Below, one piece after another: positions 22,183 to 38,970 of a DNA stretch of 64,000 bases. The stretch lies in the IMG/VR virus record IMGVR_UViG_3300040808_002740, positions 1 to 64,000 of that record; one strand, 5' to 3'. The translations under genes were made by a program, and so were the position numbers. Position 1 is the first letter of the stretch, and each line of letters opens with the position of its first letter. Under the pieces are notes generated by a model, which ran no database searches, was not told the DNA's origin, and saw only the letters and a list, made by a program, of their open reading frames with translations. Source of the DNA: a virus.

Positions 22183-22770
22183 ATGGCAGGTAACAAAGGC
22201 GGAAGCGGACTACCTTTAGGTACGTTCACGTATACCGATCTCACAGACGCTGGCAATTTCGTGGTGTCGTTGCAGAATCTCGGGTTTTCCGCCGTTTCTG
22301 AAGCTGTCGATACGCTAAACACGAGTGTTTTAGGTGATGTCGGTAAAGCGCATGACATCATTGTTGACGGTCAGGAATACAACCTCACAACCACTTTCAC
22401 TGAAATTCCTTTGGGAACAACTATTTCTGTTCGCGCAATCGGACCGTTTTTCCCGCCTCACTTTCCGCCACACTTTCCGCCATTCTTCCCTCCGCACTTT
22501 CCACCCCACTTCCCGCCGTTTTTCCCTCCCCATTTCCCTCCGCATTTTCCACCATTTTTCCCTCCTCACTTCCCTCCGCACTTCCCACCGTTTTTCCCAC
22601 CTCACTTCCCTCCACACTTCCCACCTCACTTCCCGCCACATTTCCCGCCGTTCTTCCCTCCACACTTCCCACCACATTTCCCACCGTTCTTCCCACCACA
22701 CTTCCCACCGTGGTTCCCGCCTCACTTCCCACCACACTTCCCGCCTTTCTTCCCGCCGAGCTTTAAGTAG
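22183..22770 (+). CDS. Fibre-tip-like protein ending in 26 FPPX repeats
   Basis: A 195-residue protein with two parts. Residues 1-89 form a small domain (PLGTFTYTDLTDAGNFVVSL) resembling fibre-associated proteins. Residues 90-193 are 26 uninterrupted FPPX tetrapeptides (X is His 17 times, Phe 7, Trp 1, Ser 1), mostly in the order FPPH-FPPH-FPPF, ending SFK. Such a sequence would favour a polyproline-II helix with regularly spaced aromatic and His side chains that could bind metal, host surface or partner chains. It is the last gene of the fibre block, six bases after the giant fibre, and a hairpin separates it from a run of 2OG oxygenases, several of them prolyl-hydroxylase-like. Function unknown; a fibre-tip role is inferred. 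Confidence 0.7.
   Translation: MAGNKGGSGLPLGTFTYTDLTDAGNFVVSLQNLGFSAVSEAVDTLNTSVLGDVGKAHDIIVDGQEYNLTTTFTEIPLGTTISVRAIGPFFPPHFPPHFPPFFPPHFPPHFPPFFPPHFPPHFPPFFPPHFPPHFPPFFPPHFPPHFPPHFPPHFPPFFPPHFPPHFPPFFPPHFPPWFPPHFPPHFPPFFPPSFK
22450..22761 (+). repeat. Tandem FPPX-coding repeat (26 units of 12 bases)
   Basis: Twenty-six consecutive 12-base units encode Phe-Pro-Pro-X, with a 36-base higher-order period for FPPHFPPHFPPF. Synonymous differences (TTC/TTT, CCT/CCA/CCG, CAC/CAT) break up DNA identity while the protein is nearly perfectly kept, which suggests selection on the peptide rather than recent slippage alone. Confidence 0.9.
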
Positions 22771-22787
22771 GAAAAACAAGAGGAGTG

Positions 22788-22832
22788 ACATAGATCCCTT
22801 GACTGCCAACGTGGTGGACGAGGGATCTATGT
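22788..22832 (+). terminator. Long hairpin between the FPPX gene and the oxygenase cluster
   Basis: A perfect 12-base arm at 22788-22799 (ACATAGATCCCT) pairs with 22821-22832, and the interior can extend the stem by about eight more pairs, including G-T pairs, around one mismatch to the loop ACG. TTTA follows. It is preceded by an orphan GAGGAG at 22780-22785. It may terminate the fibre operon, or it may bring that ribosome site next to the ATG at 22835; the sequence cannot decide. Confidence 0.55.
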
Positions 22833-22836
22833 TTAT

Positions 22837-22852
22837 GGTAAGTTCGCTTACC
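22837..22852 (+). promoter_or_regulatory. UUCG-tetraloop hairpin directly before the first oxygenase start
   Basis: GGTAAG (22837-22842) pairs with CTTACC (22847-22852) around TTCG. UUCG tetraloops are unusually stable in RNA. The hairpin ends two bases before the ATG at 22855, where no ribosome site is present. It lies inside a 6-codon mini-frame (MVSSLT, 22835-22855) whose TGA overlaps the ATG. Confidence 0.5.
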
Positions 22853-22854
22853 TG

Positions 22855-23487
22855 ATGGAACAAGTTGAAGAAAAATCGCTAGTTGAACCAGGTCACTTCG
22901 GAACAACAGCAGAGAACATCACAGTCATTGAAAACTTCGTAGATCTAGATGATCTGAAAACCCTGCAAAAGTTTTTCCCGACTATTGAAGAGTGGGAAAA
23001 TCCTATGGGTGACGAATTTGATGAAGATGGCACGTGTATTTACGACGCCTCCTATTGGTGGGATCGAATGTGTAGTGGCGAAATCCTCAAACGCATCTCC
23101 CCAGATATATTTAATCTGATTGATAAATATATTGACAAGATGCAAAAAGTGTTGGAGGACAAATTCAACGTTGCTCTATACAAGCGCCCGCCAGTACTTA
23201 TCAGATGGCTTCCAGGCAATGAGCAGCAACCACACGCGGATAAACAGTTGAATGACGGAAAGCCAAATCCTTTCCCTCTGTATGACCTGAACTCAATCAT
23301 TTACTGGAACGAAGATTTTGATGGTGGCGAGTTTTATTACCCTGAGTTCGATATTGAAATTCCGATAAAACCAGGCTTAGCGGTAGCACATCCAGGTGAT
23401 GTCCACTATCTTCATGGTGTAAAACAAATTACCCGTGGAGAAAGATGGACTACCCCTTCTTTCTACACAATCACTGAACTGAGGTAA
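22855..23487 (+). CDS. Fe(II)/2OG dioxygenase, prolyl-4-hydroxylase-like (first of cluster)
   Basis: A 210-residue single-domain enzyme of the P4H/2OG-Fe(II) oxygenase superfamily. The iron ligands are H127-x-D129 (QPHADKQ) and H187, with R197 (RGERW) as the expected 2OG carboxylate binder. The intervening strand region IIYWNEDFDGGEFYYPE (about 148-164) is the usual NxDFEGGE-type core. Family chemistry is oxygen-dependent hydroxylation coupled to 2OG decarboxylation; the substrate is unknown. It follows the FPPX-repeat gene after two hairpins, and the next oxygenase starts four bases after its stop. The start at 22855 lacks a ribosome site; the overlapping mini-frame MVSSLT may feed ribosomes to it. 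Confidence 0.85.
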   Translation: MEQVEEKSLVEPGHFGTTAENITVIENFVDLDDLKTLQKFFPTIEEWENPMGDEFDEDGTCIYDASYWWDRMCSGEILKRISPDIFNLIDKYIDKMQKVLEDKFNVALYKRPPVLIRWLPGNEQQPHADKQLNDGKPNPFPLYDLNSIIYWNEDFDGGEFYYPEFDIEIPIKPGLAVAHPGDVHYLHGVKQITRGERWTTPSFYTITELR

Positions 23488-23490
23488 ATA

Positions 23491-24192
23491 ATGAGAATTG
23501 GCGGATACTTGGGCAACCCGACCGACGGCATCATGCTGTACAAAGACGTTTGGGCACCTGACTCAAACTTCATCGCTCGACTTGAAACCGGTCTCGCTGA
23601 GAGCACCCACGAATACTTCTCATGGAAGCAGGCGACAGTTGGAGACTACGAGGTGATGAAGGATTACAGAGATTGCGTTGACTTCAAGTTGCGTCAAGCA
23701 GACATCCCTGTTCCTGAAGAGTTCGCAGATCTTGGACGGGTGTACGAGGAAGTTATTTCTGGTGTACGCCAGTGCGTGCAGCACTACTCGTCAATGTACA
23801 ACTTGCAACTTGACTATGAAGAAGCCACCAACTTCGTTCGCTATGGCGAGGGGCAGCATTTCTCAGTTCATCCTGACTCTGGGTTTTCTTATTCTTGCGC
23901 CGTGTCTGCTATTGGGTATTTGAATGACGACTACGAAGGCGGCGAGTACATCATGCCGTACAAAAACCTTCAGTTTGTCCCCGAAGCAGGTGATGTCATT
24001 GTCCATCCAAGTGATTTCATTTACGCTCATGCTTCTCAGCCTGTAAAGAGTGGAATCAAGTATTCTGCCGTCACCATGTATGACTACAACGACCGTAACC
24101 ACCAGAGCCACGGCGGAGGTGGGTACTCGGCGCAGCAAGATACGACAATGGGAATTCCTGTTGCCAGCGGTCAGACGATGGCTATTCAGTGA
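23491..24192 (+). CDS. Fe(II)/2OG dioxygenase, prolyl-4-hydroxylase-like
   Basis: A 233-residue P4H-like enzyme. Ligands H127-P-D129 (SVHPDSG) and H180, with K190 (SGIKY) in the usual basic 2OG-binding position; Lys there is typical of collagen-type prolyl hydroxylases. The YLNDDYEGGEYIMPYKNL block (about 143-160) is the family core. The final ~35 residues are Gly/Gln-rich and low complexity (HGGGGYSAQQDTTMG), perhaps an assembly or interaction tail. GAGGT precedes the ATG, and its stop shares a base with the next gene. Same operon as the flanking oxygenases; substrate unknown. Confidence 0.88.
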   Translation: MRIGGYLGNPTDGIMLYKDVWAPDSNFIARLETGLAESTHEYFSWKQATVGDYEVMKDYRDCVDFKLRQADIPVPEEFADLGRVYEEVISGVRQCVQHYSSMYNLQLDYEEATNFVRYGEGQHFSVHPDSGFSYSCAVSAIGYLNDDYEGGEYIMPYKNLQFVPEAGDVIVHPSDFIYAHASQPVKSGIKYSAVTMYDYNDRNHQSHGGGGYSAQQDTTMGIPVASGQTMAIQ

Positions 24193-24914
24193 TGGATGTA
24201 ACTCTCACTAGAACACATCAAAATCCACCTGAGATAAAGCAAGCGTCAGTTCGACGCGACTGGATGGATGACACCTACAAGAAGCATGCATACAAGTGTC
24301 TTCCCCTGACTGAAGCAAACGTCAACGGTTGGGAGGTTCTTCTCCAACAAGATGTTGTTATTCAATGGGACGGGGGGCTGACTGTTCCTCGTGTCCTGTC
24401 CGGCGAGAAGATGACGTTTGAGACAAATGGTCAGACTTACGAACGTGACATTGTTATGCCCAGCATTGTTGGGATTATGTCGTTCACTGTTGGGTGGACG
24501 TTCTCAACGCCTCCAGGAGTGTCCACGTGGATAAGCGGGTCACCTAACTATTTTGTTGATGGGGCTGTTCCTTTAACGGCGCACATTCCATCTGACTGGT
24601 GGCCAGACGAGTTCAACATGAACTGGAAGATCACAAAAATTGGTCAGCCAGTTATTTTTCCTGCTGGTTCACCTTTTATGTTTTTCCAGTTTTACGACAA
24701 CTCTCTGATGCCAAGCGTTGAGTTCACAGTTGAGAACTACTGGGACAAGCCAGATTTGTCTGCTGCTCGACAGTCGTACGGTGATGCAAAGATGAAGAAG
24801 TTGCAAGAACAGCCTTGGACTTGGATGGGTGGCATCCGAACTGGGCTAGACGAAAACGGTAATCGTATTGGCCCCGCATTTGAGGGTCACCCACAACTGA
24901 AGGAGCCTTCATGA
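24192..24914 (+). CDS. DUF6065-like protein
   Basis: A 240-residue protein of unknown function. The layout resembles the DUF6065 family: an N-terminal beta part, TPPGVSTWISGSPNYFVDG near 111-129, then PLTAHIPSDWWPDEFNMNWK and GSPFMFFQFY, a beta-barrel-like pattern. No metal-ligand triad is clear. Members of this family are often encoded beside 2OG oxygenases (recollection, not checked). The ATG at 24192 shares its A with the previous stop, and its end overlaps the next start by four bases, so it is translationally coupled to two oxygenases. It could be a partner or small-molecule binder in the same modification system. Family assignment is from memory of sequence style. Confidence 0.5.
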   Translation: MDVTLTRTHQNPPEIKQASVRRDWMDDTYKKHAYKCLPLTEANVNGWEVLLQQDVVIQWDGGLTVPRVLSGEKMTFETNGQTYERDIVMPSIVGIMSFTVGWTFSTPPGVSTWISGSPNYFVDGAVPLTAHIPSDWWPDEFNMNWKITKIGQPVIFPAGSPFMFFQFYDNSLMPSVEFTVENYWDKPDLSAARQSYGDAKMKKLQEQPWTWMGGIRTGLDENGNRIGPAFEGHPQLKEPS

Positions 24915-26479
24915 AAGGTTTTGGCGGAATCGCCTTAGGACTGAAACTAGGCAACCTCGGTTTCAAGATGAGAGGCATCACTGCCCGGCAAGTTCTTGAT
25001 GACCCAGAGTATTTCAAGTTGATTTTCAACAAGAACAAGATGGTTGGTTTCATCGGCATGAACCCAACCGACCAGGAGCACATGAAACTGGTCAACGCTA
25101 TCTACACAGGCGAAGTTGATGAAGATTTCAACGGTGGTCTTCTTGCGGGCGTAAATCACCCAACGGTCAAGAATGTTGAAGATAAAACGGATCCTGAACA
25201 GTTTCTGAAAGAGAACTGGCATGTAGATAACCCGTTCTTGGAAGCTCCTCCTGCGGTTACTTCCATCCATATGACGACCTACCGTGTTGATAAAGATTTC
25301 GGTCACACATTCTGGGTGAGTCTTGTAAATCTGTACGAAGAGTGTCCTGAGCACATTAAGGAACACCTGCCGACGGCTCGTTTCGTGGCGGAGACTGGAG
25401 CCGCAGGACGTGACGTTGTCAGCCATCCCGCCTTGCGAACACATCCGGATACTGGAGAAACTCTTCTTTACTGGACCGGACCAGGCACCCAACTTGACGG
25501 GGGGAGCACCCCATGGTTTGAAGAACTCTACGACTGGGTTGAGGAGTATTGCCGAACAGAAGCTAATCGTTACAAGTGGACGTGGCAAGAAGGCGACGTA
25601 GTCATCTGGGACAATCGTGCCGTAATGCACGGTTTTTACAATGGCTGGGAGCGAGAGGATAGGGTCTTCCAGCGGGTAGAGGTAGGGAAGGAGAAGCCTT
25701 TCTACGATCCCGAGTACAAGGTTGATGGTAACGAGAACTTTGGTGACGTACAGTCATACCCTGGCGTTGATAAGGACAAGTCAAAAGGTCCGAACCCTGA
25801 CCACATTCCTCTTGTCTTCACAAAGGGAATCTATGCCCTTGAGGGACTTGAGTGTCTATTTCAGAAGGTAACGCTTTTCATCTTCACCAAGGATGGGAAC
25901 ATTCCTGAGCGTGGCGTCAAGTTGAAAGAGTTTTTTGACAATGAACCGTTTGGCGAGGACTTCCATGTCTACCCAGTGAAGATGGATCCGGAGGATCGAA
26001 TTTTCGCTAACTTGATGCGTTACAGCAAAGCCCACATGGAAGGGTTTGATCTTGAGGGTCAGTCGTTCCTGTTTTCTCGCAACGGGGACATGCATGGCGG
26101 GTTCCCTCCGCATCAAGACTTCATGAAGCAAGCACCAAATGACGACGACACGTTGACAGTCATTGAGAAGGTTCGTGCGTATCTGCGTTGGCATCCAGAC
26201 ATGCGGCACGCCGGACATGCATGGCATTATCCCGATTGGTTCCCACACCAGCCTTTGCAGTTTCGCCCATGGGACTTCCATAATTTGTCTTTCATGACAT
26301 ACGAAGGCTTCAGGGGTCACGATCCTCCCGAGGATTTCTTGGTTCAGTTTGCTATTGACACCATCTACGGTTGTTTCAATCATCTTCGAGATAACGATGA
26401 CCGGAAGCGGATCATTGAGCGCATCCACGACTATGTTGGATACATGCTTGAACTGGGGGAACATGAATATGAGCGATAA
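24911..26479 (+). CDS. TauD-like Fe(II)/2OG dioxygenase with long C-terminal extension
   Basis: A 522-residue protein. Residues 1-260 are TauD/TfdA-like: H104-V-D106 (NWHVDNPF), the HPALRTHPDTG substrate/2OG loop at about 172-182, and the distal H240 (AVMHGF) with R251/R255 (EREDRVFQRV). Enzymes of this family hydroxylate small molecules such as taurine, but also larger targets. The C-terminal ~260 residues are not recognised; they are rich in His/Trp/Phe (HAGHAWHYPDWFPHQ, RPWDFHNLSF). AAGGAG precedes the ATG; it overlaps the previous gene by four bases, and the next oxygenase gene starts inside its end. Length is about twice that of typical TauD, so a fused function is possible. Confidence 0.85.
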   Translation: MKGFGGIALGLKLGNLGFKMRGITARQVLDDPEYFKLIFNKNKMVGFIGMNPTDQEHMKLVNAIYTGEVDEDFNGGLLAGVNHPTVKNVEDKTDPEQFLKENWHVDNPFLEAPPAVTSIHMTTYRVDKDFGHTFWVSLVNLYEECPEHIKEHLPTARFVAETGAAGRDVVSHPALRTHPDTGETLLYWTGPGTQLDGGSTPWFEELYDWVEEYCRTEANRYKWTWQEGDVVIWDNRAVMHGFYNGWEREDRVFQRVEVGKEKPFYDPEYKVDGNENFGDVQSYPGVDKDKSKGPNPDHIPLVFTKGIYALEGLECLFQKVTLFIFTKDGNIPERGVKLKEFFDNEPFGEDFHVYPVKMDPEDRIFANLMRYSKAHMEGFDLEGQSFLFSRNGDMHGGFPPHQDFMKQAPNDDDTLTVIEKVRAYLRWHPDMRHAGHAWHYPDWFPHQPLQFRPWDFHNLSFMTYEGFRGHDPPEDFLVQFAIDTIYGCFNHLRDNDDRKRIIERIHDYVGYMLELGEHEYER

Positions 26480-27293
26480 TCCTGTTGGTACACACCTCGG
26501 TGGTGGTGTCGTCCTCTTTGAGAACGTGTTCAACCTTGACTGGGATTGGATGCGTGAATACTGCAAGGACGTTTTGCAGGCAGAGCGCGAGACCATGTAC
26601 ACGCCAGGTGTTGACCCGATTACTGGTGAGGACGGCTACATCAATCGGAGCGGATATTTCTTTAAGAAAGATTCGTTGGATGAGATGCCGTGGCGTGGGA
26701 GTTTCGTTCATCAGGACAGCCGCTCTGAAGTAATTGATGTCCTTGACTACATTGAGGAGCGCCGAGATGCGTGTCTTCTCTCGTATCTAGAAATGTTCCC
26801 AATTGCCGGTAAGTGCATTTGGTGGAAGATCAAAAGCCACATTGTTGCTTATCCGGTTGGCGGGTTTTTAGGAATGCACGCAGATGTGAGTACTGACTAC
26901 GAGTACGGCAAGCCTCATCCTCGTGATCAGTTGGCCACTCGCAACAGCGTTTCGGTTGTGGCTTACCTGAACGACAACGTCAAGTCGGAGGATGAGCTTG
27001 ACGGAACGAACTTCACTGGTGGTGCTCATAACTTCGAATACCTAGATATCAAACACGAAGACATAAAGAAAGGCGACATGCTTTTCTTCCCGTCTAATTA
27101 TGTTGCAGCGCATGAAGTGCAGCCCGTGACTGGCGGGTGGCGCTACTCTTACTTGGGGTGGTATTGTCAAGGTACGCCAAACCCTGATGTTTGCGAAAAT
27201 GTGGTTGACCCACAAGAACACCCTACCCTTGCCCGAATCTCAACGAATGTGTACATGGAAGATGGATACTCAATACTCCCCCCAGTCGGATAA
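26469..27293 (+). CDS. Fe(II)/2OG dioxygenase, P4H-like, IWWK subfamily
   Basis: A 274-residue P4H-like enzyme. Ligands H137-x-D139 (LGMHADVS) and H215 (AAHEVQPV), with R225 (GGWRYSY). The element IWWKIKSHIVAYPVGGFLGM (about 117-136) precedes the first ligand and is shared with the oxygenases at 27843 and 28489 (IWWR...), marking a paralogous subfamily. An insert of about 20 residues (KSEDELDGTNFTGGAHNFEY) sits in the core. ATG 26469 is chosen because GGGGA lies eight bases upstream; ATG 26463 is too close to it. It overlaps the preceding oxygenase gene by 11 bases. Substrate unknown. Confidence 0.85.
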   Translation: MSDNPVGTHLGGGVVLFENVFNLDWDWMREYCKDVLQAERETMYTPGVDPITGEDGYINRSGYFFKKDSLDEMPWRGSFVHQDSRSEVIDVLDYIEERRDACLLSYLEMFPIAGKCIWWKIKSHIVAYPVGGFLGMHADVSTDYEYGKPHPRDQLATRNSVSVVAYLNDNVKSEDELDGTNFTGGAHNFEYLDIKHEDIKKGDMLFFPSNYVAAHEVQPVTGGWRYSYLGWYCQGTPNPDVCENVVDPQEHPTLARISTNVYMEDGYSILPPVG

Positions 27294-27843
27294 AACAATT
27301 GGAATTGCCCACCCAGGAAAGATGGGCGGCACCCTTGCCTATGCTTTGTGTAAGAGCGGGCACAGGGTTGTCTGGGCATCGGCTGATCGCTCTGAGGCAA
27401 CACACGAACGTGCAGCAGAGTTTGATCTCACTGATCTCGTGACCCTTGATGCGATGCTCGCAAAATGCGACATCATTTTCTGCATTGCTTTTGGTGGCGC
27501 TCCACTTGAGATTGCGAACTATGTTGCATCTCGTGGCTACAACGGACTTTACGTTGACGCCAACGGTCTCTGGGGCGAAGAGTCCGAACAGGAAATTGCA
27601 TCCATCATCACCGGAGCAGGCATTGATTATGTTGAAGCCGGACTTTATGGATGGCCATATCCCGGTCGTGAAGGCTACACAAATGAGCACACCCTGTACC
27701 TGTCAGGAGATAGGGCTCAGGAGGTTGCTGATCTTTTCACTGACGGGTACTGGACACCCGAGGTTCATGAAACCTCAGCCAAAGAGGTGAAGCGTCTCCG
27801 CAATGACCGCGAGCGTGGAACCGAATTCCCTGACGAGAAGTAA
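27262..27843 (+). CDS. Short NAD(P)-binding beta-hydroxyacid-dehydrogenase-like protein
   Basis: About 193 residues. Residues 12-35 (TIGIAHPGKMGGTLAYAL) form a Rossmann nucleotide-binding loop of the 6-phosphogluconate/3-hydroxyisobutyrate dehydrogenase type, with G14 and M21-G-G23 kept. CDIIFCIAFGGAPLEIANYV and YVDANGLWGEESEQEIA continue the fold. The protein ends near residue 190, so the usual helical C-terminal dimerisation/catalytic domain is missing. The start is uncertain: ATG 27262 is used, ATG 27247 is possible, and neither has a good ribosome site. It overlaps the upstream oxygenase and its stop overlaps the next start. A redox role beside the oxygenases is plausible but unproven. 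Confidence 0.7.
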   Translation: MDTQYSPQSDKTIGIAHPGKMGGTLAYALCKSGHRVVWASADRSEATHERAAEFDLTDLVTLDAMLAKCDIIFCIAFGGAPLEIANYVASRGYNGLYVDANGLWGEESEQEIASIITGAGIDYVEAGLYGWPYPGREGYTNEHTLYLSGDRAQEVADLFTDGYWTPEVHETSAKEVKRLRNDRERGTEFPDEK

Positions 27844-28514
27844 TGGAAGCAATCCATCACGGCTTTGGGATCGTTGAGTATCGAAATGTCCTAGACATTG
27901 ATGCTTCGTTTTTTGAAGGATGGCTTGAACGCCGTCGCGAACAAGAACCAAGCGACTACACCTTGCAGGATGATGGCACGTACATGAATAGGGGTGGCTA
28001 CATCTTCACAGAGGAGCAGGTCAATGCTTCCCCAGGTCGTCTTCTGCAACTTAAAGTGAACACCACTGACGACGATCTGAAGTTTGCAGAACTTCTTGAA
28101 AAATCAATGGGTGAATGTGTCACCAAATATTTCAATTTCTTCCCTGACGCAAAAGAAAACATTTGGTGGAGAGCCGTGCCTCATGTCGCTACCTACAAAC
28201 CGGGTGGATACATGGGATATCACAACGACAACTTAGTTGGTGCTGGTTCGGAAAGCGAAAAAGCGATCTACAGCGTCCTGACCGGATCTCTGATTCTGAA
28301 AGATGATTGCGTCGGTGGCGATCTTGGATTCAAATACATCGACAAGCATTTCGCCCCCGAAGCGGGAACAGCATTTGTTTATCCTGCCGGTTTCTTAGGC
28401 ACTCACGAAGTTGTGCCAGTAACGTCAGGGGAACGTATTTCCTATCTGGAGTTCTTTGGTCATGGAACTCTGATAGGAACTATTCCTTTCACTCCTCTTC
28501 GTACGGAATCTTAG
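27843..28514 (+). CDS. Fe(II)/2OG dioxygenase, P4H-like, IWWR subfamily
   Basis: A 223-residue enzyme. Ligands H127-N-D129 (MGYHNDNL) and H188 (GTHEVVPV), with R198 (SGERISYLE). The IWWRAVPHVATYKPGGYMGY block (about 107-126) and NRGGYIFTEEQ match the enzymes at 26469 and 28489, so they are paralogs. The core lacks the GGE triplet of other P4Hs, having GGDLGFKYIDKHF, a milder variant. TAATG joins it to the upstream dehydrogenase-like gene. Its last bases overlap the end of the opposite-strand oxygenase gene (convergent, 28489-28514). Confidence 0.85.
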   Translation: MEAIHHGFGIVEYRNVLDIDASFFEGWLERRREQEPSDYTLQDDGTYMNRGGYIFTEEQVNASPGRLLQLKVNTTDDDLKFAELLEKSMGECVTKYFNFFPDAKENIWWRAVPHVATYKPGGYMGYHNDNLVGAGSESEKAIYSVLTGSLILKDDCVGGDLGFKYIDKHFAPEAGTAFVYPAGFLGTHEVVPVTSGERISYLEFFGHGTLIGTIPFTPLRTES

Positions 28515-29487
28515 TTCCGACTGGAGCGCCCTCTTTTGAGCGTTGCTGCGTCTCAATAGTTGAGGCGTGGAAACCTAACGCTGAGTCTTTTGACGTGTCC
28601 AGGTGCGAGTAGCCCGAATGGGAGAACTTGACGTGATCTTGGTACAGGTAAGGCACATACACCGGAGCTAGCCACATGTCGCTTTCCTGAGGCTCCAGTA
28701 CTTCGTATTTGTGCTCTCCGCCATGACCGAACTGCGTCAGGTAGGTGTATCGAGGTGCTCCTTCTCCAACTTGCGCCACTCCATGAGTTCCAACATAGTT
28801 GGCAGGGAAAAGAATGATGTCTCCGGTTTTTGGTTTTACCGTGATGTCTAAGTAGGGGAAGTGCATTTCTCCACCTTCATAGTCATCGTTGAAATAAGCC
28901 AGACCGTTCACGACTTGGTACATAGCGATCTCTCGTTCGCTGTAGTACCTCTGCCCATCAATGGTGAAGGTGTTGGTGTCGTTGTCGTTGTGGAGACCCA
29001 GATTCGCTCCTGGCATGTACTTGAGACAGTGTCCTCTCATTCGCCACCAAATTGAGTTGACGATAAGTGGGTAAATATCACAGTACCTGATTAGGCAGTG
29101 ATACAAACTTTCCTCAACACCCTCAAAAAAGTTTCTGACGTCGTGTGGCGTGCTTGGGTTGACTGGTTCAGGCATCCCCATACCGCCGACCCGCATTGGT
29201 AGTGCGAGTAGATCTTTCATGTCCACGATTTTGCCGTCAAAAGTTTCGCCGTGGAGCATGTTGCCTTCGTCGTCTTTGATGATTTCAAGACCACATGATG
29301 GCACGTATGCCATTTCGTCAATGTATGGCAAAATTACGTCTCGGTCAACGTTGAAAACGTTGTGGAAGTGGATTACTCCACCTTTGTAATTTGTGTACTC
29401 AATCTCGTTGACAGTTTTGCAGTCGTTTTCGTCAAGACTGTAATAGGCGTACTTGTCTCGAGTTGGAGGTCCGAATCTTGCGGGCAT
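28489..29487 (-). CDS. Fe(II)/2OG dioxygenase, P4H-like, IWWR subfamily (opposite strand)
   Basis: A 332-residue enzyme. Ligands H166-N-D168 (LGLHNDND) and H235 (GTHGVAQV), with R246 (GAPRYTYL). IWWRMRGHCLKYMPGANLGL (about 146-165) marks it as a paralog of the two + strand enzymes. The core YFNDDYEGGEMHFPYLDIT (about 198-216) is canonical. The last ~80 residues are an extra unrecognised tail. It is the most downstream gene of a six-gene minus-strand island (28489-31524), convergent with the oxygenase at 27843. TAATAT lies six bases before the ATG and there is no ribosome site, which would fit a leaderless transcript. Confidence 0.85.
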   Translation of the reverse strand: MPARFGPPTRDKYAYYSLDENDCKTVNEIEYTNYKGGVIHFHNVFNVDRDVILPYIDEMAYVPSCGLEIIKDDEGNMLHGETFDGKIVDMKDLLALPMRVGGMGMPEPVNPSTPHDVRNFFEGVEESLYHCLIRYCDIYPLIVNSIWWRMRGHCLKYMPGANLGLHNDNDTNTFTIDGQRYYSEREIAMYQVVNGLAYFNDDYEGGEMHFPYLDITVKPKTGDIILFPANYVGTHGVAQVGEGAPRYTYLTQFGHGGEHKYEVLEPQESDMWLAPVYVPYLYQDHVKFSHSGYSHLDTSKDSALGFHASTIETQQRSKEGAPVGTKIPYEEE

Positions 29488-29499
29488 GTATTTATATTA
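29485..29499 (-). promoter_or_regulatory. Candidate -10 element for a leaderless start of the minus-strand oxygenase
   Basis: On the minus strand TAATAT (29499-29494) is followed by six bases and the ATG at 29487. No Shine-Dalgarno sequence is present. This spacing would place the transcript start at or near the ATG. A weak call from sequence alone. Confidence 0.3.
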
Positions 29500-30598: not shown

Positions 30599-30828
30599 TA
30601 GGTGTCTTTTCTAACTTTTTCGCAGATGATGACTGCACCTTCTTCGGCAAGTTCAAGCGCTCCAACGGAAGGGTTGAAGGTGATTGCGGCTCCCATGTTG
30701 TTGTTGACGCTTTCCGATTCGGGTGTTTCTTCCTCAGGCACGAAGCGTCCAGTTGATGTAGCGATTTCGCTTGGATGTCGATCATCCCCATCCAGAACGG
30801 CTCGAAGGTGAGGTGACGAAAACTTCAT
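30598..30828 (-). CDS. Unknown small acidic protein
   Basis: A 76-residue protein (MKFSSPHLRAVLDGDD...). The first 45 residues look disordered and acidic (PEEETPESESVNNN); the last 30 form a short beta/helix unit (ITFNPSVGALELAEEGAVII). No family recognised. Overlaps the upstream gene by four bases and the downstream gene by one base, in a tightly packed minus-strand operon. Confidence 0.5.
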   Translation of the reverse strand: MKFSSPHLRAVLDGDDRHPSEIATSTGRFVPEEETPESESVNNNMGAAITFNPSVGALELAEEGAVIICEKVRKDT

Positions 30829-31037
30829 GCCGTTAGAGCCTCAAATGCCGACAATTGTCGCTTCAGCGAGACGTAGTTGTAATAGTTTAGATCTGCTTCG
30901 GAAACGGGGATTTCCATTGCGGACGTTGCTGTTTCTGGGTCAACTTCCAGAAACGTGCAAAGCACGAAGATTGAGTACTCCAAGAAGTCTTGGGCTTCGC
31001 TTCTCGCTTGAGCGATTTGAGCTGCTGACAATGCCAT
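30825..31037 (-). CDS. Small helical protein, member of a local three-gene family (copy 1)
   Basis: A 70-residue protein. A helix with EAQDFLEYSIFVLCTFLEVD, then PETATSAMEI, an acidic loop, and a C-terminal helix (YVSLKRQLSAFEALTA). The same layout (hydrophobic helix, then DP or NP plus a short loop, an acidic loop with a late Asp/Tyr, and a closing helix) recurs in the two genes upstream at 31053 and 31273, so these are probably tandem paralogs. Function unknown; could be phage-specific binding modules. Confidence 0.5.
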   Translation of the reverse strand: MALSAAQIAQARSEAQDFLEYSIFVLCTFLEVDPETATSAMEIPVSEADLNYYNYVSLKRQLSAFEALTA

Positions 31038-31052
31038 TTTGTGCTCCTAGCG

Positions 31053-31265
31053 TCAGAGTGCTGCCAAGTACGCCTTTGCGTCTCGGAGTTTTTGCATTGC
31101 ATCTGACAATACTTCGTAGGAGGGGTCATCGCTGGAATAGTCGTCAGCAACTGATACTGGATCGATGTTGAGTGACATGCAAGCCATGAATACGTCTTCT
31201 TCGCATGCGGCAACACCATTGAGTGCGGCGCTTCTTTTCTTTTCGTTGGAGATTGAGAAAATCAT
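31053..31265 (-). CDS. Small helical protein, local three-gene family (copy 2)
   Basis: A 70-residue protein starting MIFSISNEKKRSAALNG. The central ACEEDVFMACMSLNIDPVSV aligns in layout with copies 1 and 3, followed by an acidic loop (DDYSSDDPSYEVLSD) and a closing helix (AMQKLRDAKAYLAAL). ATG 31265 is used in preference to far upstream codons that would overlap copy 3. Function unknown. Confidence 0.5.
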   Translation of the reverse strand: MIFSISNEKKRSAALNGVAACEEDVFMACMSLNIDPVSVADDYSSDDPSYEVLSDAMQKLRDAKAYLAAL

Positions 31266-31272
31266 TTTGACC

Positions 31273-31524
31273 TCAGAGTGAGTTGATTCGCGTGACGAGA
31301 TCGTTGTACTGCTTGACCCGTTCCGCCAGGTTGACGTCCAGTTGGTTGAAGTCTTCTGCCTCTGTGTCAAAACTGTCGGGCAGTGGGTGCGTGCCAGTGT
31401 CAATGGTTTCTGGGTTTACTCCAGCGTGAAGCGCTGCAACGATAATCAACTCTTCAGCAGACTCTTTGATAAGATTCAAATGATAGAGTTTTTGGTCATT
31501 GTTGATATTGTTGAGAGCTACCAT
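31273..31524 (-). CDS. Small helical protein, local three-gene family (copy 3)
   Basis: An 83-residue protein (MVALNNINNDQKLYHLNLIK...). ESAEELIIVAALHAGVNPET matches the helix-then-PET pattern of copy 1; an acidic loop (DSFDTEAEDFNQLD) and a closing helix (LAERVKQYNDLVTRI) follow. A GGAG ribosome site is at good distance. It is the first gene of the minus-strand island, divergent from the peroxidase-like gene, so the 31525-31615 gap probably holds its promoter. Confidence 0.55.
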   Translation of the reverse strand: MVALNNINNDQKLYHLNLIKESAEELIIVAALHAGVNPETIDTGTHPLPDSFDTEAEDFNQLDVNLAERVKQYNDLVTRINSL

Positions 31525-31600
31525 CTTCGTCTCCTACAGAACACTGGTGCAACACCGATTGTAGCATATTTTGGGGTTTTATCGCCGAGGAGCAAGGGAA

Positions 31601-31616
31601 TGGTATTATCCCTGCA
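31601..31616 (+). promoter_or_regulatory. Extended -10 candidate before the peroxidase-like gene
   Basis: TGGTATTAT at 31601-31609 is an extended -10 element (TGn plus TATTAT). The ATG at 31616 begins seven bases after it, so the transcript would be leaderless or nearly so. GAGGAG-like sequence is present but too far upstream (about 24 bases) to serve as a ribosome site. No convincing -35 box. Confidence 0.4.
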
Positions 31617-32284
31617 TGGCGAAAATTGAGTCAATTTCACAAGAAATGATGGATCTACTCGTCTCCGAACATGATCTTGGCCCAACTGCTGACGGGGAAA
31701 GCGTTTACGACATTCCGCTTTTGCCTTTTGACAGCGAAGAAGGCGATCTGATCACTAATCAACGCGGTAACGTCACCATGATTGTCAACGTGACAGGAGA
31801 GTGCGGAAACTCAATGCAGTATCCGATGCTTCAGGTTCTGCAATACGACTATGAAGATCAGGGTTTTCAAATTGTTTGCGTGCCAACTAACGACTATTGC
31901 GAGTTCGCGTATGGCGACTTTGCAAACAACTCGACGAGCACGGCTGAAGAGGCTTACAACTACGCCTTTTACAACTACCGAGTCCGTCTACCGTTCACCG
32001 AGTTGGTTAAATCTCGTTACAGCCGAGAAGACGACGACCGCTCATTTGAGCCACACCCCATCTATAAGAGGCTTGGTATTGATCCAGGTTCGTTGATTTT
32101 GGGCAACTTTGAGAAGTTTATTGTTTCCCGTGACGGCAAGCGGCGAGCACGATTCACTAACGGGTGCCTGCTGCCAGCAAACTTTGAGACCGGCTACGAC
32201 GAATACGGTCCAAAAGAAGGGTTGAAACGTATTCGAGCAGCGATTGAGTACTTCTTGGCTGAGGAATACGACGACGAAAAATGA
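31616..32284 (+). CDS. Glutathione-peroxidase-like (thioredoxin-fold) protein
   Basis: A 222-residue protein. Residues 50-101 (QRGNVTMIVNVTGECGNSMQ, then PMLQVLQYDY and IVCVPTNDYCEF) follow the glutathione peroxidase pattern with the peroxidatic Cys at C63. The block LGNFEKFIVSRDGKRRARF (about 162-180) fits the later family region with FEKF-x-V-x-x-DG. Two usual catalytic partners look lost: the Trp before NFEKF is Gly here, and the NQFG glutamine region is replaced by NDYC. Activity may be altered, or it may be a thioredoxin-fold binding protein. Its stop overlaps the next oxygenase gene. Detoxifying peroxide from uncoupled oxygenase turnover is one possible role. Confidence 0.65.
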   Translation: MAKIESISQEMMDLLVSEHDLGPTADGESVYDIPLLPFDSEEGDLITNQRGNVTMIVNVTGECGNSMQYPMLQVLQYDYEDQGFQIVCVPTNDYCEFAYGDFANNSTSTAEEAYNYAFYNYRVRLPFTELVKSRYSREDDDRSFEPHPIYKRLGIDPGSLILGNFEKFIVSRDGKRRARFTNGCLLPANFETGYDEYGPKEGLKRIRAAIEYFLAEEYDDEK

Positions 32285-33846
32285 TTGTTGAATTTGATCA
32301 ACACACAGTTGAGCAAGTAGTTGAAAACCCATCTTTGTACGCCGCTGCTTACAAGCAGCATGGAATGATCGTTTTCAAAAAAGCGTACTTCTCTGACGCT
32401 GAAGTAGTGAAAATCTTTAGAGCGCTTGGCCCCGAGTTGAACTTCACTGCTTTCGCAACTGATGACAACGGACCTCGCGAAGACACTCTTAGTTGGCCAT
32501 ACATGCAGGATCACGATAAGGCGATCAGGCAGGACGAAGAGGATGGCGTCAACTCACCTGAAAAAGATCTAATCCAATGGCATGTAGAAGGCGTTGCTAT
32601 GCGGTGGCCACAGTATGCCGCCGGGTGGAACATGGAGCTTTTTGCGTGCAGTAGCGAATTCGGGAAAACCGGGCTCGTTGATATGTGCAAGATGTACGAC
32701 GATCTTGCTGAGCCGGAAAAAGAATTCCTAAAAAAGTCCAGGATCATTCACGTTCCCAACTGGCAACAAGGCGACCCCTACAAACTGAGTCGAAAATTCA
32801 TAGAGGCAATTTATGAAGCCCCCTATGACGAAAACCTGTCCATGGCAGATCTTTTTGTGCAGGCAAAACGCGACAAAGTCACCATGATTGATGGCGACTC
32901 TTACATCAATTCTTACTCCAGGCAAGCCGTAGACCCTCACCCCGCATCAGGCAGAGACACGCTGCGCGTTTGCCCATGTAGTGCGCCTTGGGGCATCCAA
33001 GATCATCTAGTTCTCTTTGACGGCAGGCAACCCACAAAAGAAGAAATTGAATTTTTCGATCGCCTGATGGTGAAGATCACTGAAGAAATTACTTACAACA
33101 ACGACATCCAGATGTGGCATAAATGGGATGAAGGTGATTTTGCGTTGCCTGACCTGTTCCGAATGGCTCACGGAGTCAGGGGTGGAATGCAGGAGGGGCA
33201 ACGACGCTTCCGTGGAAACTGGTGTTTCGCTGTTGGCACACAGGCGGATCCGATGGAAAGACGACTTGTTGATTCATCTCTTGTGAAGAAAGACAAAACA
33301 ATGCGTTTAAAGACACCTGAAGTTGAAGGCGTACTCATCATTGAGGAATGCTTTGACTCTTCAGAGATTTACCCAAACCTAAAATCAGCAGAATGGCAAA
33401 ATCTGCGTCCGGACTCACCTCCCGAGTCAACACATCTACACCTCGTAAACGAAGCGCATTACTCAAATGTTTTGTATGAAAACATCGGCGATTCAATAGC
33501 TCAAGTAATCAAACATGCAGATGAATTCTTTGGATGTAGGCATCTTGCTTACGACCTGGGTAATTCCTTGTCGCACATGAAGTTCGTTGAAGGATCTGGT
33601 GCTGGTGCGCCAGAAGGTGAAACATATAACGTTGAGATGGCGGGAACGACGACACTGATTTTCTTCTTGAACGACGATTACAAAAATGGAAACATTGTGA
33701 TACGCGAAAAAGAAGGCACAACAATTTTAGATAAGCCCTGCTCTGGGGATGCAATGTTGATTGATGGTAGTCTCGTGTACGAATCTCTCGCATGCACCGA
33801 TGGAGAAAAAATTGTCGCAATCGTCCACCTTGACAGGCAAAACTGA
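32281..33846 (+). CDS. Two-part 2OG oxygenase: TauD-like with HxE motif plus degenerate C-terminal domain
   Basis: A 521-residue protein. Residues 1-320 are TauD-like with H101-V-E103 (QWHVEGVA), the DPHPASGRDTLRV loop (about 218-230), and H297 (RMAHGV) followed by R308/R309/R311. HxE instead of HxD occurs in clavaminate-synthase-type members. Residues 340-521 look like a second double-stranded beta-helix domain: IFFLNDDYKNGNIVIREKEG and GDAMLIDGSL, but the His ligands are not clear, so it may be inactive or structural. It overlaps both neighbours. The pairing resembles the long oxygenase at 24911. Substrate unknown. Confidence 0.78.
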   Translation: MIVEFDQHTVEQVVENPSLYAAAYKQHGMIVFKKAYFSDAEVVKIFRALGPELNFTAFATDDNGPREDTLSWPYMQDHDKAIRQDEEDGVNSPEKDLIQWHVEGVAMRWPQYAAGWNMELFACSSEFGKTGLVDMCKMYDDLAEPEKEFLKKSRIIHVPNWQQGDPYKLSRKFIEAIYEAPYDENLSMADLFVQAKRDKVTMIDGDSYINSYSRQAVDPHPASGRDTLRVCPCSAPWGIQDHLVLFDGRQPTKEEIEFFDRLMVKITEEITYNNDIQMWHKWDEGDFALPDLFRMAHGVRGGMQEGQRRFRGNWCFAVGTQADPMERRLVDSSLVKKDKTMRLKTPEVEGVLIIEECFDSSEIYPNLKSAEWQNLRPDSPPESTHLHLVNEAHYSNVLYENIGDSIAQVIKHADEFFGCRHLAYDLGNSLSHMKFVEGSGAGAPEGETYNVEMAGTTTLIFFLNDDYKNGNIVIREKEGTTILDKPCSGDAMLIDGSLVYESLACTDGEKIVAIVHLDRQN

Positions 33847-34585
33847 AACACTTCTCCAAACATTTCAAAAAAACGGGGTAGTTGAATGCCCTGGTTTGGT
33901 GCCGCATGCGGTCATTGATGACTACGTCAACAACTTTTGGCACAAAACCTTCACCTTTGACGATAACCATCAGCGCTTCACCGGCATTGACCAGATGTAC
34001 TTGGAGTATCCGGAGATTCGAGATCTGCTTCTTCATCAGTCAATTTCGGACACCTTCACAAAACTTGACATGTGCCTTGCCTTGCACTCCGATCTGACCT
34101 ACTGGAGATCGTCAAACACCGGATGGCACGTTGATGAACTCAACGACAATCCCAACGGTGCAGATCAATATCTTGGAGTGTGGATCGCTTTGGCTGACAT
34201 TGATGAGGGTTCAGGTCCATTCCAATACCTGAAGGGTTCTCATCGCTGGGATCTTGACATATCGTTCGGCAAAGACAATCGCTTGGGGATGCTCCACATG
34301 TGTCAAATGGCGATGGATAATAACGAACATGAGGTCACAACTTTCATGCCGAAGAAGGGCGATGCGCTGTTCTGGAACAGCAGGGTAATTCATCGCGGTT
34401 CTCCGCCACGTAGGAACATTCCGAGACCAGCATTGATTGGGCATTTTTCCAATCATTGGACTTGGTCAGAGTCAACAGAACGACCACAACTTAGTGAAGT
34501 AGTCGAATCAATGGAACGCGATCCAGATATGCGGTGGCACGGTTCCGGCTGGTATCGAGCCAACATGCATAACTCGGGAGAATGA
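33800..34585 (+). CDS. PhyH-like Fe(II)/2OG dioxygenase
   Basis: About 261 residues of the phytanoyl-CoA dioxygenase (PhyH) family. Ligands H110-V-D112 (TGWHVDELN) and H198 (VIHRGSP), with R209 (PRPALIGHF). The block ALADIDEGSGPFQYLKGSHR is a PhyH hallmark. The start is uncertain: ATG 33800 overlaps the previous gene by 47 bases and lacks a ribosome site; later TTG codons at 33812 and 33830 are alternatives. The stop overlaps the start of a second PhyH-like gene. Family members hydroxylate small molecules or lipids and occasionally larger targets; the substrate here is unknown. Confidence 0.82.
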   Translation: MEKKLSQSSTLTGKTETLLQTFQKNGVVECPGLVPHAVIDDYVNNFWHKTFTFDDNHQRFTGIDQMYLEYPEIRDLLLHQSISDTFTKLDMCLALHSDLTYWRSSNTGWHVDELNDNPNGADQYLGVWIALADIDEGSGPFQYLKGSHRWDLDISFGKDNRLGMLHMCQMAMDNNEHEVTTFMPKKGDALFWNSRVIHRGSPPRRNIPRPALIGHFSNHWTWSESTERPQLSEVVESMERDPDMRWHGSGWYRANMHNSGE

Positions 34586-35334
34586 TGAACGACAAAAGAA
34601 GCGTTGCGGAGCAGTACGAGCAAGACGGATTTTTTGTGTTGCAAAGCGCTATCCCTGGGGAGGTTATTGATTCATATTTGGAGATGTACCAACATAACCA
34701 TGGTGAATCTCTTGACGGATGGGGACGTAGCACGAAATACTTGGAGCACCCGGAAATTCTTGACGTGCTTTGCCATCAAGCCATTGAAAGTGCCTTTGAA
34801 GAAATTGAGATGGCGGCAGCTCTGCACGTAGAAATGACCATGCAGAGATCCACCCAGTGCGGCTGGCACAAGGACGCTTTGCTGCCTGATCCTCATGCCA
34901 ACTCAACTTATGTTGGCGTGATTGTCGCTTTGGGTGAACTTGACGACCAGTCTGGACCTTTTGAGTTGATCGTTGGTTCTCACAAGTGGGAACATATTTC
35001 TTTTGACGGAGAAAATCACAAAGACGCTGAGGACGAGATTGTCAATCAAAGAATCTTGGTTGAAATTGCGGAGAAGAAGCCAAAGATTTATCGTTTTGAA
35101 GGCAGCAAGGGTGATGTCGTAGGTTGGCACTCCCAGACCTACCACCGTGGATCTCGAGTTAGATCAAACCCACATCGGCCAACTTTGATCGGTCATTACT
35201 GTGGGACTTATTCTCACGAATTTCATCGCGGACCTTTACCTCCTTACGAGGTGAGGAAGTCAGAGATGGAGAGTGAAACGATGAAGGATAGATATGCTCG
35301 CCACGGCGGGTCGGGGGCTTTGTATTTCTTGTGA
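34582..35334 (+). CDS. PhyH-like Fe(II)/2OG dioxygenase (second copy)
   Basis: A 250-residue PhyH family enzyme. Ligands H96-K-D98 (CGWHKDALL) and H188 (TYHRGSRV), with R199 (PHRPTLIGHY). ALGELDDQSGPFELIVGSHK mirrors the upstream paralog, to which it is clearly related (shared YLEHPEIL/YLEYPEIR and the GHY/GHF end block). ATG 34585 has better spacing from GGGAG than 34582. Last + strand gene of the oxygenase region; the convergent glycosyltransferase gene ends only one base away, without an evident terminator. Confidence 0.84.
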   Translation: MMNDKRSVAEQYEQDGFFVLQSAIPGEVIDSYLEMYQHNHGESLDGWGRSTKYLEHPEILDVLCHQAIESAFEEIEMAAALHVEMTMQRSTQCGWHKDALLPDPHANSTYVGVIVALGELDDQSGPFELIVGSHKWEHISFDGENHKDAEDEIVNQRILVEIAEKKPKIYRFEGSKGDVVGWHSQTYHRGSRVRSNPHRPTLIGHYCGTYSHEFHRGPLPPYEVRKSEMESETMKDRYARHGGSGALYFL

Positions 35335-35335
35335 C

Positions 35336-36403
35336 CTACGTGTAGTTGCTAATTAAAGCATCCCAATCTTTGGCCATTTCACGAACGTCAAGATGCTCAC
35401 GTACCGTTTTGTAGACCTTTTCTGATTCTTCTTTCCTGACTGAGTGGTTCTTTAGTTCCGCGAGGTGTTGTTTCCACTCGTCTGATGTTGAAGCTAGACG
35501 ACCTATTCCGTATGTGGTTTGCAGACGCCGGTATTCGCTGATGTCCGAACATACGAATGGGATTCCTGCGGCGGCATATTCGATCGCTTTGATCCATGAC
35601 TTGGCGTGATTGAACGGAACATCGTTAAGAGGTGCAAGCCCGACATCAAAGGATGTGAAGGCTTTCTGACCATACTGATACGGATCGAACATCGGTGATG
35701 TTGTGACTCTTCCTGGATCAATGCCTATTTTGCTTGCCATTGTTGGTCCACCAGCGTAGCCGGTGTGGTGCATGCGGTATTCCCCGTCGGATAGTGAATC
35801 CTGCAATATCTCCAGATCCATGGAACGGTGTAGCGTTGACCCGACCCATCCAAGGATTGGCTTCTTTGATGAAATTGGTTTTCTCTTGTACTTGTCGGTA
35901 TCAACTCTGTTTTCAATCATGTGGACTTTGTCTGATCCAATACTGAATTCGTGTGCCATCTTTGAAAACAGGAAAGGTGTTGAGACAACCACTACATCTG
36001 AGAGTTTTATATTGCTTTTGTAGTAGTCAAGTGTTTCGTCGCTGTCAGCATTTTCTTGCAGTCTTTGATAAGCAAGATTGTCGCGATGCAAACCCCAGTA
36101 CCAGTCATCTAAATCATTGATAACTAATTTATTTCTGTTTTTGGGGCTCATTAGATCTTCTGTCAATTGACGATGCATGATTCGCTGCATGATCACTACA
36201 TCAATGTCGTAGTGCTGAGTTCCTCGATGGTCAACAATTCCGAAACCTTTGTTCGGGTGAGTTGCTAAAAGTCCAGAGACATACTTGTGTTCAGAGTGGC
36301 GTTGCCATTGCTGTAGGCGGATGTAGTTAGCTCCGCCTGGAACGTTTCCGTACTGATTGAAGACTGTTCGCGACCAGTCGTTGGATGCAATCCCAATTTT
36401 CAT
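35336..36403 (-). CDS. Glycosyltransferase, GT4-like
   Basis: A 355-residue glycosyltransferase of the GT-B type. The C-terminal half has KKPILGWVGSTLHRSMDLE (about 190-208, start of the nucleotide-sugar domain), then SFDVGLAPLNDVPFNHAKSW and KAIEYAAAGIPFVCSDISEY, the GT4 sugar-nucleotide binding region with the E at the E-x7-E-like site replaced by a K-x-x-E pattern. No signal peptide or membrane segment. It is the last gene of the minus-strand replication/packaging block but lies next to the oxygenase cluster, so it could glycosylate a phage or host surface molecule, including a hydroxylated fibre. Acceptor not determinable from sequence. Confidence 0.8.
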   Translation of the reverse strand: MKIGIASNDWSRTVFNQYGNVPGGANYIRLQQWQRHSEHKYVSGLLATHPNKGFGIVDHRGTQHYDIDVVIMQRIMHRQLTEDLMSPKNRNKLVINDLDDWYWGLHRDNLAYQRLQENADSDETLDYYKSNIKLSDVVVVSTPFLFSKMAHEFSIGSDKVHMIENRVDTDKYKRKPISSKKPILGWVGSTLHRSMDLEILQDSLSDGEYRMHHTGYAGGPTMASKIGIDPGRVTTSPMFDPYQYGQKAFTSFDVGLAPLNDVPFNHAKSWIKAIEYAAAGIPFVCSDISEYRRLQTTYGIGRLASTSDEWKQHLAELKNHSVRKEESEKVYKTVREHLDVREMAKDWDALISNYT

Positions 36404-38968: not shown

Positions 38969-38970
38969 AG

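Follow-up and report, generated by a model that had tools for sequence, protein, structure and literature searches.

An FPPX repeat protein behind phage fibre genes as a candidate substrate of co-encoded prolyl hydroxylase-like oxygenases

Why would a phage follow its fibre genes with a gene for a proline-rich repeat protein, and that gene with a dense series of oxygenase genes? The question is raised by a 64,000-nucleotide stretch of viral DNA (the window), which is part of virus record IMGVR_UViG_3300040808_002740 (total 72,462 bases). The repeat protein, here called FPPX after its Phe-Pro-Pro-X units, is encoded at 22183-22770 on the plus strand, and the 12.5 kb behind it hold nine Fe(II)/2-oxoglutarate (2OG) oxygenase genes, five of them prolyl 4-hydroxylase (P4H)-like. 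We consider it probable that FPPX is a fibre-tip protein whose array is the substrate of the co-encoded P4H-like hydroxylases. A contig of 137,166 bases belongs to the same phage (99.995% identity over 20,267 bases), and the genome of the window phage is known to at least 137 kb.

As an earlier note on this DNA had proposed, the FPPX gene closes the fibre block as a single open frame of 195 residues, in which an N-terminal domain of about 89 residues is followed by 26 FPP units that reach the C terminus (FPPSFK end). Directly upstream and on the same strand lies the gene for a 2094-residue fibre protein (15892-22176, +) with an Mtd_N domain and PHROG tail-fibre matches. The letters at the fourth position of the 26 units are HHFHHFHHFHHFHHHHFHHFHWHHFS. 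At the DNA level, Tandem Repeats Finder scored the array at 240 and 201, far beyond chance, while the proline codons are mixed (CCG 18, CCT 13, CCA 19, and CCC 2), and this third-position variation indicates that the protein repeat is maintained while its DNA drifts. FPPX is the richest in proline (28%) among the frames of at least 120 residues in the window phage. Its array contains no glycine and hence no collagen-like Gly-X-Y repeats, and lysine and arginine are absent apart from the final residue. The N-terminal domain had no Pfam match, and a profile comparison with PASTA-type relatives returned a probability of 1%. In the window protein the fourth letters recur every three units, with 17 agreements out of 23, and among 45 distinct arrays a period of 3 was the best in 16 (200 shuffles: mean 7.3, maximum 15); this periodicity could stem from a 36-bp duplication and is given no weight here.

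Arrays of FPP followed by F, Y, H, or W are widespread in uncultured viral contigs and often C-terminal. A four-unit FPPX DNA pattern found at least 120 stretches in the viral collection, one locus was added through the N-terminal domain, and at all 121 loci listed the array reads in an open frame. Among 99 distinct open reading frames (ORFs), the proteins carry 4 to 34 FPP units (median 12), and the last unit lies no more than 25 residues from the frame end in 60, with some frames cut by contig ends. The fourth letters of the longest unbroken run per ORF, 1,071 units in all, comprise 640 F, 224 Y, 142 H, 12 W, and 53 others. Histidine, suggested earlier as a target, is thus a minority letter, and histidine chemistry cannot be the general purpose of the array. 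The front half of the proteins is variable, with PASTA in L113 (Pfam 1.8e-5), fibronectin III (Fn3) in L004, L049, and L069, and an immunoglobulin-like domain in L064. Of 93 contigs, 73 have a fibre family of the Mtd_N type close to FPPX, and Fn3, PASTA, and S74 domains lie inside the FPPX proteins of other phages.

In some proteins the array is followed by a further domain. At L037:1085-1762 (-), a Peptidase_S74 chaperone domain (3.6e-11) begins a few residues past the last FPP unit, which places the array near the expected site of an S74 self-cleavage, and by eye a Hint-like stretch of about 120 to 190 residues follows shortly after the last unit in L007, L049, L069, L072, L094, L097, L099, and L121; three of these eight stretches end in HNK. 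Pfam Hint_2 was matched in L094 only, below the cut-off (0.0025), and not in L049 or L069. S74 and Hint domains are capable of cutting themselves off, which would again put FPPX at the mature C terminus. A self-cleaving domain after a fibre-tip repeat would be unusual.

A five-unit DNA pattern gave at least 117 stretches in bacterial and archaeal genomes, among which reading revealed long mixed aromatic arrays in only three contigs of metagenome-assembled genomes (MAGs), namely, L162, L192, and L232. The others were mostly one-letter repeats (FPPP, FPPL, FPPV, FPPR, etc.; L229 is FPPH x6), and 2 of the 117 had no open array. The three contigs are binned to Verrucomicrobiales and Gammaproteobacteria MAGs, the front part of L162 resembles that of L113, and all three may be phage contigs inside MAGs. 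A tblastn search of 50,697 phage records with the window FPPX, a PASTA-FPPX, and an Fn3-FPPX protein found no match, a result that covers the N-terminal domains only, since the low-complexity filter masks the array.

The repeat and the oxygenases are genetically linked, in both directions. Of the 50 longest FPPX contigs, which include one from the window phage, 45 matched PF13640, the Pfam family of the P4H-like enzymes, with 1 to 15 matches each and commonly 5 to 10, versus 7 of 50 length-weighted random contigs. The five FPPX contigs without a match are G034, whose array lies at the extreme contig end, and G035, G037, G046, and G049. The random set comprised the 50 longest of 119 new loci, the 120th stretch of the scan being L056, an FPPX locus already known on a 9-kb contig. 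Exactly three of these 50 carried a two-unit FPPX pattern (G053, G079, and G081), and these had 9, 9, and 10 PF13640 matches, with no more than 4 in any of the remaining 47. G079 and G081 show mirrored match patterns and may be close kin.

The same contrast appeared among relatives. In a clade-matched set of 31 contigs, drawn from 80 terminase loci by a terminase at least 80% identical to that of the window and leaving out the window's own phage (L441), exactly three carried FPPX (G114, G119, and G125), with 8, 9, and 12 PF13640 matches; of the other 28, 25 had none and three had 1, 3, and 1. A second terminase lineage of 11 contigs, from a further 80 loci and leaving out L679 (bait contig G004), included FPPX in G135 (8 matches) and G137 (9) and 0 to 3 matches in the nine others; it holds two large contigs only and so offers little contrast. 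Pooling the 92 contigs that were not chosen for FPPX, at least 8 matches were present in 8/8 with the array (8 to 12) versus 0/84 without it (0 to 4; Fisher 1e-11), and any match at all in 8/8 versus 9/84. The two-unit DNA pattern is exact, and unusual arrays may escape it. The contigs are also fragments, and short ones are likely to lack both components through physical linkage by itself; G110 and G103 are the only contigs that were checked for the fibre region.

In the opposite direction, the search query was built from 13 aligned orthologues of the enzyme encoded at 22855, the first gene behind FPPX. FPPX was present at 69 of the best 80 loci; 39 of these 80 are well flanked, by 3 kb or more on each side, and 36 of the 39 hold FPPX, 35 of them no farther than 3 kb away. 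Setting aside seven previously known FPPX contigs left 63 of 73 of these best loci (31 of 33 well flanked), or 28 of 30 well-flanked loci counted by distinct enzyme sequence. One of the three well-flanked misses, L624, lies in the contig of L042, with FPPX 6.4 kb off, just beyond the stretch. At the 69 FPPX-bearing loci, FPPX lay upstream on the same strand in 47 and converged from the other side in 22. This reverse link is shown for relatives of the 22855 enzyme only. The correlation between FPPX and oxygenases that the earlier note had predicted is thus two-way for these orthologues and survives the clade-matched control.

The linkage is also local. Ten long contigs, two drawn from the random sample and eight from the FPPX set (the window phage among the eight), contain 102 P4H-like ORFs, of which 69 fell within 10 kb of FPPX, an area covering 22% of the DNA, versus 25.4 +/- 9.3 by circular shift, and none of 20,000 shifts reached 69. 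A P4H-like ORF was present at 87 of the 121 FPPX loci listed, at a median distance of 296 bases; of the 25 loci flanked by 3 kb or more on each side, 21 have one within 3 kb. The next gene downstream was a same-strand P4H-like ORF for 31 of 86 FPPX genes versus 150 of 1,821 other genes, in contigs that were nearly all FPPX contigs; these neighbour counts rely on a crude longest-ORF caller with some shadow ORFs, and the next-gene count includes both the window and L122, which are the same phage. Moreover, enzyme subtype and array end type vary together. Among 58 loci with a 22855-type enzyme scoring above 150 bits, 28 of the 29 with arrays ending in FPP..FK scored above 300 bits, while 25 of the 29 with other ends scored 300 or less. 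The threshold was picked after the scores were seen; p stays below 1e-9 whether it is set at 250, 300, or 350, a value that ignores shared ancestry.

All nine window oxygenases have a Pfam match and show HxD/E plus later histidines, in line with the iron ligands that had been read from them before. The five P4H-like genes lie at 22855-23487 (+), 23491-24192 (+; PF13640 3.9e-9), 26349-27293 (+; 2e-11), 27843-28514 (+; 1.1e-6), and, on the opposite strand, 28489-29487 (-; 1.8e-7). The last four score above the curated cut-off, and the listed start of the 26349 gene overlaps the preceding gene, so that its true start probably lies downstream. The first ('w1'), the tightest partner of FPPX, matches PF13640 at 8.6e-4 and 20.6 bits versus a cut-off of 27; it has the pattern HAD...H...R, with HAD at 127 and H187. 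Across 443 aligned rows, counting those with a letter at the column, the catalytic positions hold H in 433 of 436, D in 428 of 436, the distal H in 423 of 424, and R or K in 424 of 424 (255 R and 169 K), and because the P4H-like hidden Markov model (HMM) was built iteratively, starting from the five window enzymes, its matches share these residues partly by construction.

A profile of 35 enzymes near FPPX matched bacterial P4H (2.7e-13), P3H1 (1.2e-12), a PKHD-type hydroxylase (3.1e-12), and PiuC (6e-11), and further LH3 (1e-9), chlorella-virus P4H (4e-8), a procollagen lysyl hydroxylase/glycosyltransferase (PDB 6ax6; 8.3e-6), and Tet-like dioxygenases (3e-5). For the predicted structure of the 22855 enzyme (pLDDT 89.2), the top aligned structures were P3H1 (Z 18.0; 3.1 Å over 176 residues) and PHD2 (17.1; 4.1 Å over 179), followed by chlorella-virus P4H (17.0; 3.2 Å over 164), Pseudomonas putida P4H (16.6; 2.9 Å over 165), and the PKHD-type enzyme PiuC (16.3; 2.5 Å over 149). 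The predicted double-stranded beta-helix fold is closest to prolyl hydroxylases, which are tied among themselves, with PKHD types close behind.

Two relatives with a similar terminase, G110 (129 kb) and G103 (105 kb), keep the upstream tail and fibre genes, the portal, and the head genes, with about 26 and 45 kb of contig beyond the fibre genes. Neither had a match to FPPX, the five P4H-like genes, or the DUF6065 gene that lies among them, and the P4H-like family HMM also found none. A GSHPx (peroxidase-like) match was likewise absent from both, and G103 has a PhyH-like homologue. Two further contigs without FPPX and P4H-like genes (G112 and G123) lack fibre-gene matches and end near the preceding tail genes, which makes them uninformative. 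By comparison, the FPPX phages G001, G007, G119, G125, and G114 match the gene at 22855 (57 to 75%), that at 23491 (47 to 79%), DUF6065 (51 to 89%), and that at 26349 (47 to 83%), even where the front domain of FPPX differs; the best matches to 27843 (26 to 79%) and 28489 (32 to 84%) fall low enough that some may be paralogues. A GSHPx-like match is present in four of these five (23 to 65%). This pattern points to a module made up of FPPX, the P4H-like set, and DUF6065, often with the redoxin-like (GSHPx) gene; the glycosyltransferase (GT), the second TauD, and the PhyH genes are not tied to it. The cluster had previously been read as a possible modification system; the second TauD gene and both PhyH genes are not constant partners, and the peroxidase-like gene is a frequent but not constant one.

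The evidence we count for a hydroxylated tip is the array itself, its frequent terminal position, the two-way linkage, the catalytic residues, the prolyl-hydroxylase-like fold, the co-variation, and the two relatives that lack both components. Fibre genes, FPPX, and the cluster would be expressed together, and the 22855-type enzyme and its neighbours would hydroxylate prolines, at the 3- and/or 4-position and on either proline of a pair, before or during fibre assembly. The product would be a stiff, more soluble tip of the polyproline-II type exposed at the fibre end; hydroxylation would solubilise and stiffen an otherwise uncharged aromatic-proline array, and adhesion may change. Two neighbouring prolines, two ring positions, and maybe aromatic or histidine carbons could leave room for multiple specificities among several enzymes. 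A more ambitious version, to which we give chances somewhat short of even, is a mobile cassette in which a dedicated repeat substrate and hydroxylases of differing position specificity yield a heavily hydroxylated adhesive or stiff tip (hydroxyproline, perhaps dihydroxyproline or hydroxylated aromatics), that is, a hydroxyproline-based virion structure in bacteriophages; it would also say what a class of 'auxiliary' genes common in aquatic viromes is for.

The timing of expression, the presence of FPPX in the virion, its role as substrate, the residue hydroxylated, and the effect of the modification are all points that we infer. Several observations weigh against the hydroxylated tip. PKHD-type enzymes score nearly as high as prolyl hydroxylases and Tet-like dioxygenases match as well, so that neither the sequence nor the fold identifies the substrate. 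FPPX phages without nearby oxygenases, which the earlier note had named as the observation that would speak against it, form a minority: 4 of 50 contigs (G035 with 11 units, G037 with 7, and G046 and G049, whose arrays are cut short in the sequence analysed, with at least 8 and at least 4) and 4 of 25 well-flanked loci (L008, L054, L074, and L086). Over all FPPX loci listed, 34 of 121, many of them short, show no P4H-like ORF. The bait alignment was built wholly from enzymes beside FPPX. All 12 named records with PF13640 (1 to 11 matches each) show no FPPX pattern, and the link therefore holds for this enzyme set and not for phage 2OG genes overall, which have other uses too. Nine oxygenase genes also exceed what one repeat should need, and collagen-like Gly-X-Y proteins, possible (additional) substrates, are encoded in 6 of the 10 long contigs; none was found in the window phage by the test used.

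These collagen-like proteins lead to an explanation that we regard as unlikely, though worth some weight, in which the hydroxylases serve fibre proteins generally (collagen-like Gly-X-Y fibres or the Mtd_N fibre, or lysine or asparagine residues) and FPPX, though it belongs to the same fibre cassette, is not their substrate. The frequent Mtd_N-type fibre near FPPX and the LH3 match of the 35-enzyme profile agree with it, and a Baltic Sea survey names tail-fibre collagen of viruses as a possible target (PMC9301287). However, G110 and G103 have fibre genes but no P4H-like enzymes, the test used detected no collagen-like protein in the window phage, and the enzyme subtype tracks the FPPX subtype. 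We find it distinctly unlikely that the oxygenases instead serve metabolism, either of the host or of small molecules (as auxiliary genes, in modifying siderophores or lipids, or in defence), and merely share with FPPX an insertion hot spot behind the fibre genes. Four points speak for metabolism: such hot spots are common, small molecules are frequent substrates of the TauD and PhyH families, the fold is near that of PKHD-type enzymes, and the named records combine 2OG genes with the absence of FPPX. Set against this, the first P4H-like genes belong to the conserved core while the second TauD and the PhyH genes lie outside it, the reverse bait recovered FPPX at 36 of 39 well-flanked loci (among the best 80) and the subtypes co-vary, and the best PDB profile matches are protein hydroxylases.

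Two other proposals seem to us very improbable. If FPPX were a histidine-rich metal-binding tip, with the Fe(II) enzymes supplying or using iron and the repeat free of covalent modification, the histidine-rich arrays of the window phage and others would be explained; yet histidine occupies only 142 of the 1,071 fourth positions, and many arrays beside a 22855-type enzyme end in pure F/Y runs. We give just as little credence to a full pathway in which hydroxylation is followed by glycosylation through the GT-like gene at 35336-36403 (-), at the far end of the cluster. This gene, which the earlier note had called a glycosyltransferase, has no Pfam match and does match the phage family PHROG 7162 'glycosyltransferase' (3.9e-37), and weaker homologues exist in the FPPX phages G125 (32%) and G007 (36%). 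Its closest homologues, however, are in the FPPX-less G110 (46%) and G103 (50%), and none was found in the FPPX phages G001 and G119, so the glycosylation part of the earlier proposal is not supported.

Virus-encoded hydroxylation has known parallels. Like the enzymes described here, the P4H of chlorella virus PBCV-1 (vCPH, PDB 5c5t; fold match Z 17.0) is a virus-encoded enzyme of the P4H type, and its substrates are proline-rich viral proteins. Eriksson et al. 1999 reportedly described 4-hydroxyproline in viral proteins of PBCV-1. PBCV-1 is an alga virus, in contrast to the bacteriophages studied here, whose clusters combine several P4H-like enzymes with a dedicated adjoining FPPX gene. The procollagen lysyl hydroxylase/glycosyltransferase 6ax6, which we take to be Mimivirus L230, is a weak profile match to the FPPX-linked enzymes. 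In that system a viral 2OG oxygenase acts on fibre-like proteins, with collagen lysine as the target and a fused glycosyltransferase; the FPPX module, by contrast, has no GT, and no Gly-X-Y protein was found in the window phage. Plant and algal extensin-type proteins and mussel-foot proteins, in which Pro-Pro stands beside aromatics, are prolyl-hydroxylase substrates as well; these are eukaryotic secreted proteins, and we note the likeness to FPPX with no claim of relationship. T4-like cyanophages also carry several PF13640 genes per genome (1 to 11 in 12 named records), some near tail-fibre genes, but these are scattered over the genome and 12 of 12 records lack FPPX. Cyanophage 2OG-Fe(II) oxygenases have been interpreted in print either as auxiliary metabolic genes or as a possible DNA-repair substitute (PMC2984593, PMC10436341).

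Viral prolyl hydroxylation thus has a chlorella-virus precedent, and a phage cassette with a dedicated repeat substrate was not found in searches of an open-access library, only one of them specifying the letters of the repeat; these likewise yielded no paper on the FPPX array or its hydroxylase link (subscription papers and preprints lay outside this scope). The 2022 Baltic Sea virus survey lists prolyl 4-hydroxylase among the commonest auxiliary metabolic genes in the water column, refers to tail-fibre collagen, and states that viral use of the enzyme 'remains cryptic' (PMC9301287). FPPX, which shares a cassette with P4H-type genes and appears and disappears with them, is a specific candidate substrate that can be put to the test. 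If the hydroxylated tip is real, part of these 'auxiliary' genes would be virion maturation enzymes and not host metabolism genes, and phage tips would be hydroxyproline materials, as are collagen, extensins, and the adhesives of mussels. The array could easily go overlooked, because low-complexity filters mask it in similarity searches and because, with no lysine or arginine save the last residue in the window array, tryptic proteomics would hardly detect it.

The remaining genes of the cluster were largely as described before. The DUF6065 gene (24189-24914, +; 2e-43) and the peroxidase-like gene, a GSHPx/redoxin-like protein (31571-32284, +; 1e-9), are both borne out; the dehydrogenase-like gene (27187-27843, +), an NAD-binding protein, is only marginal, with 2-Hacid_dh_C at 25.0 bits versus a cut-off of 25.1, and has a match in three of the five other FPPX phages compared. 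A TauD-type 2OG oxygenase gene at 24911-26479 (+; 4.9e-30) has a match in two of the five. Outside the conserved core lie the second TauD-type gene at 32281-33846 (+; 5.7e-16) and the PhyH-type genes at 33761-34585 (+; 3.8e-13) and 34582-35334 (+; 9.7e-13). The proteins of the DUF6065 gene and the 26349 gene had no match among named phage records.

The DUF6065 family occurs near FPPX in 45 of 93 contigs, and a second family (L003:7416-8210 (-)), near FPPX in 29 of 93, is a distant DUF6065 relative (hhalign 97.6%). The protein was folded in search of an explanatory enzyme, and the predicted dUTPase-like structure (Foldseek E 1e-4, query TM-score 0.39) gave no clear role. dUTPases are trimers, and as a guess by analogy DUF6065 might be an assembly or scaffold factor for a trimeric tip. 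The GSHPx/redoxin-like family occurs near FPPX in 16 of 93 contigs, with another example at L113:1574-2521 (-).

Some further observations concern the surroundings of the module. Gly-X-Y proteins were seen in the FPPX phages G001, G008, G002, G004, G006, and G053 and at L021, L038, L050, L054, L064, L074, and L094, at some loci adjoining FPPX. Downstream of the cluster, window positions 36649-39765 hold two ParB_N genes with a PAPS-reductase-like gene between them, and one further small gene; the PAPS-reductase-like gene and both ParB_N genes are matched in all eight other terminase-bearing relatives compared, with or without FPPX. An extra PF13640-like match (23.6 bits, below the cut-off) lies outside the window and far from the cluster at G000:71960-72154. 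Finally, a protein of about 200 residues recurs near FPPX in nine contigs (G053:100772-101377, L054, L060, L074, L094, and others) and has, by eye, a signal-like start and a lysozyme/transglycosylase-type look.

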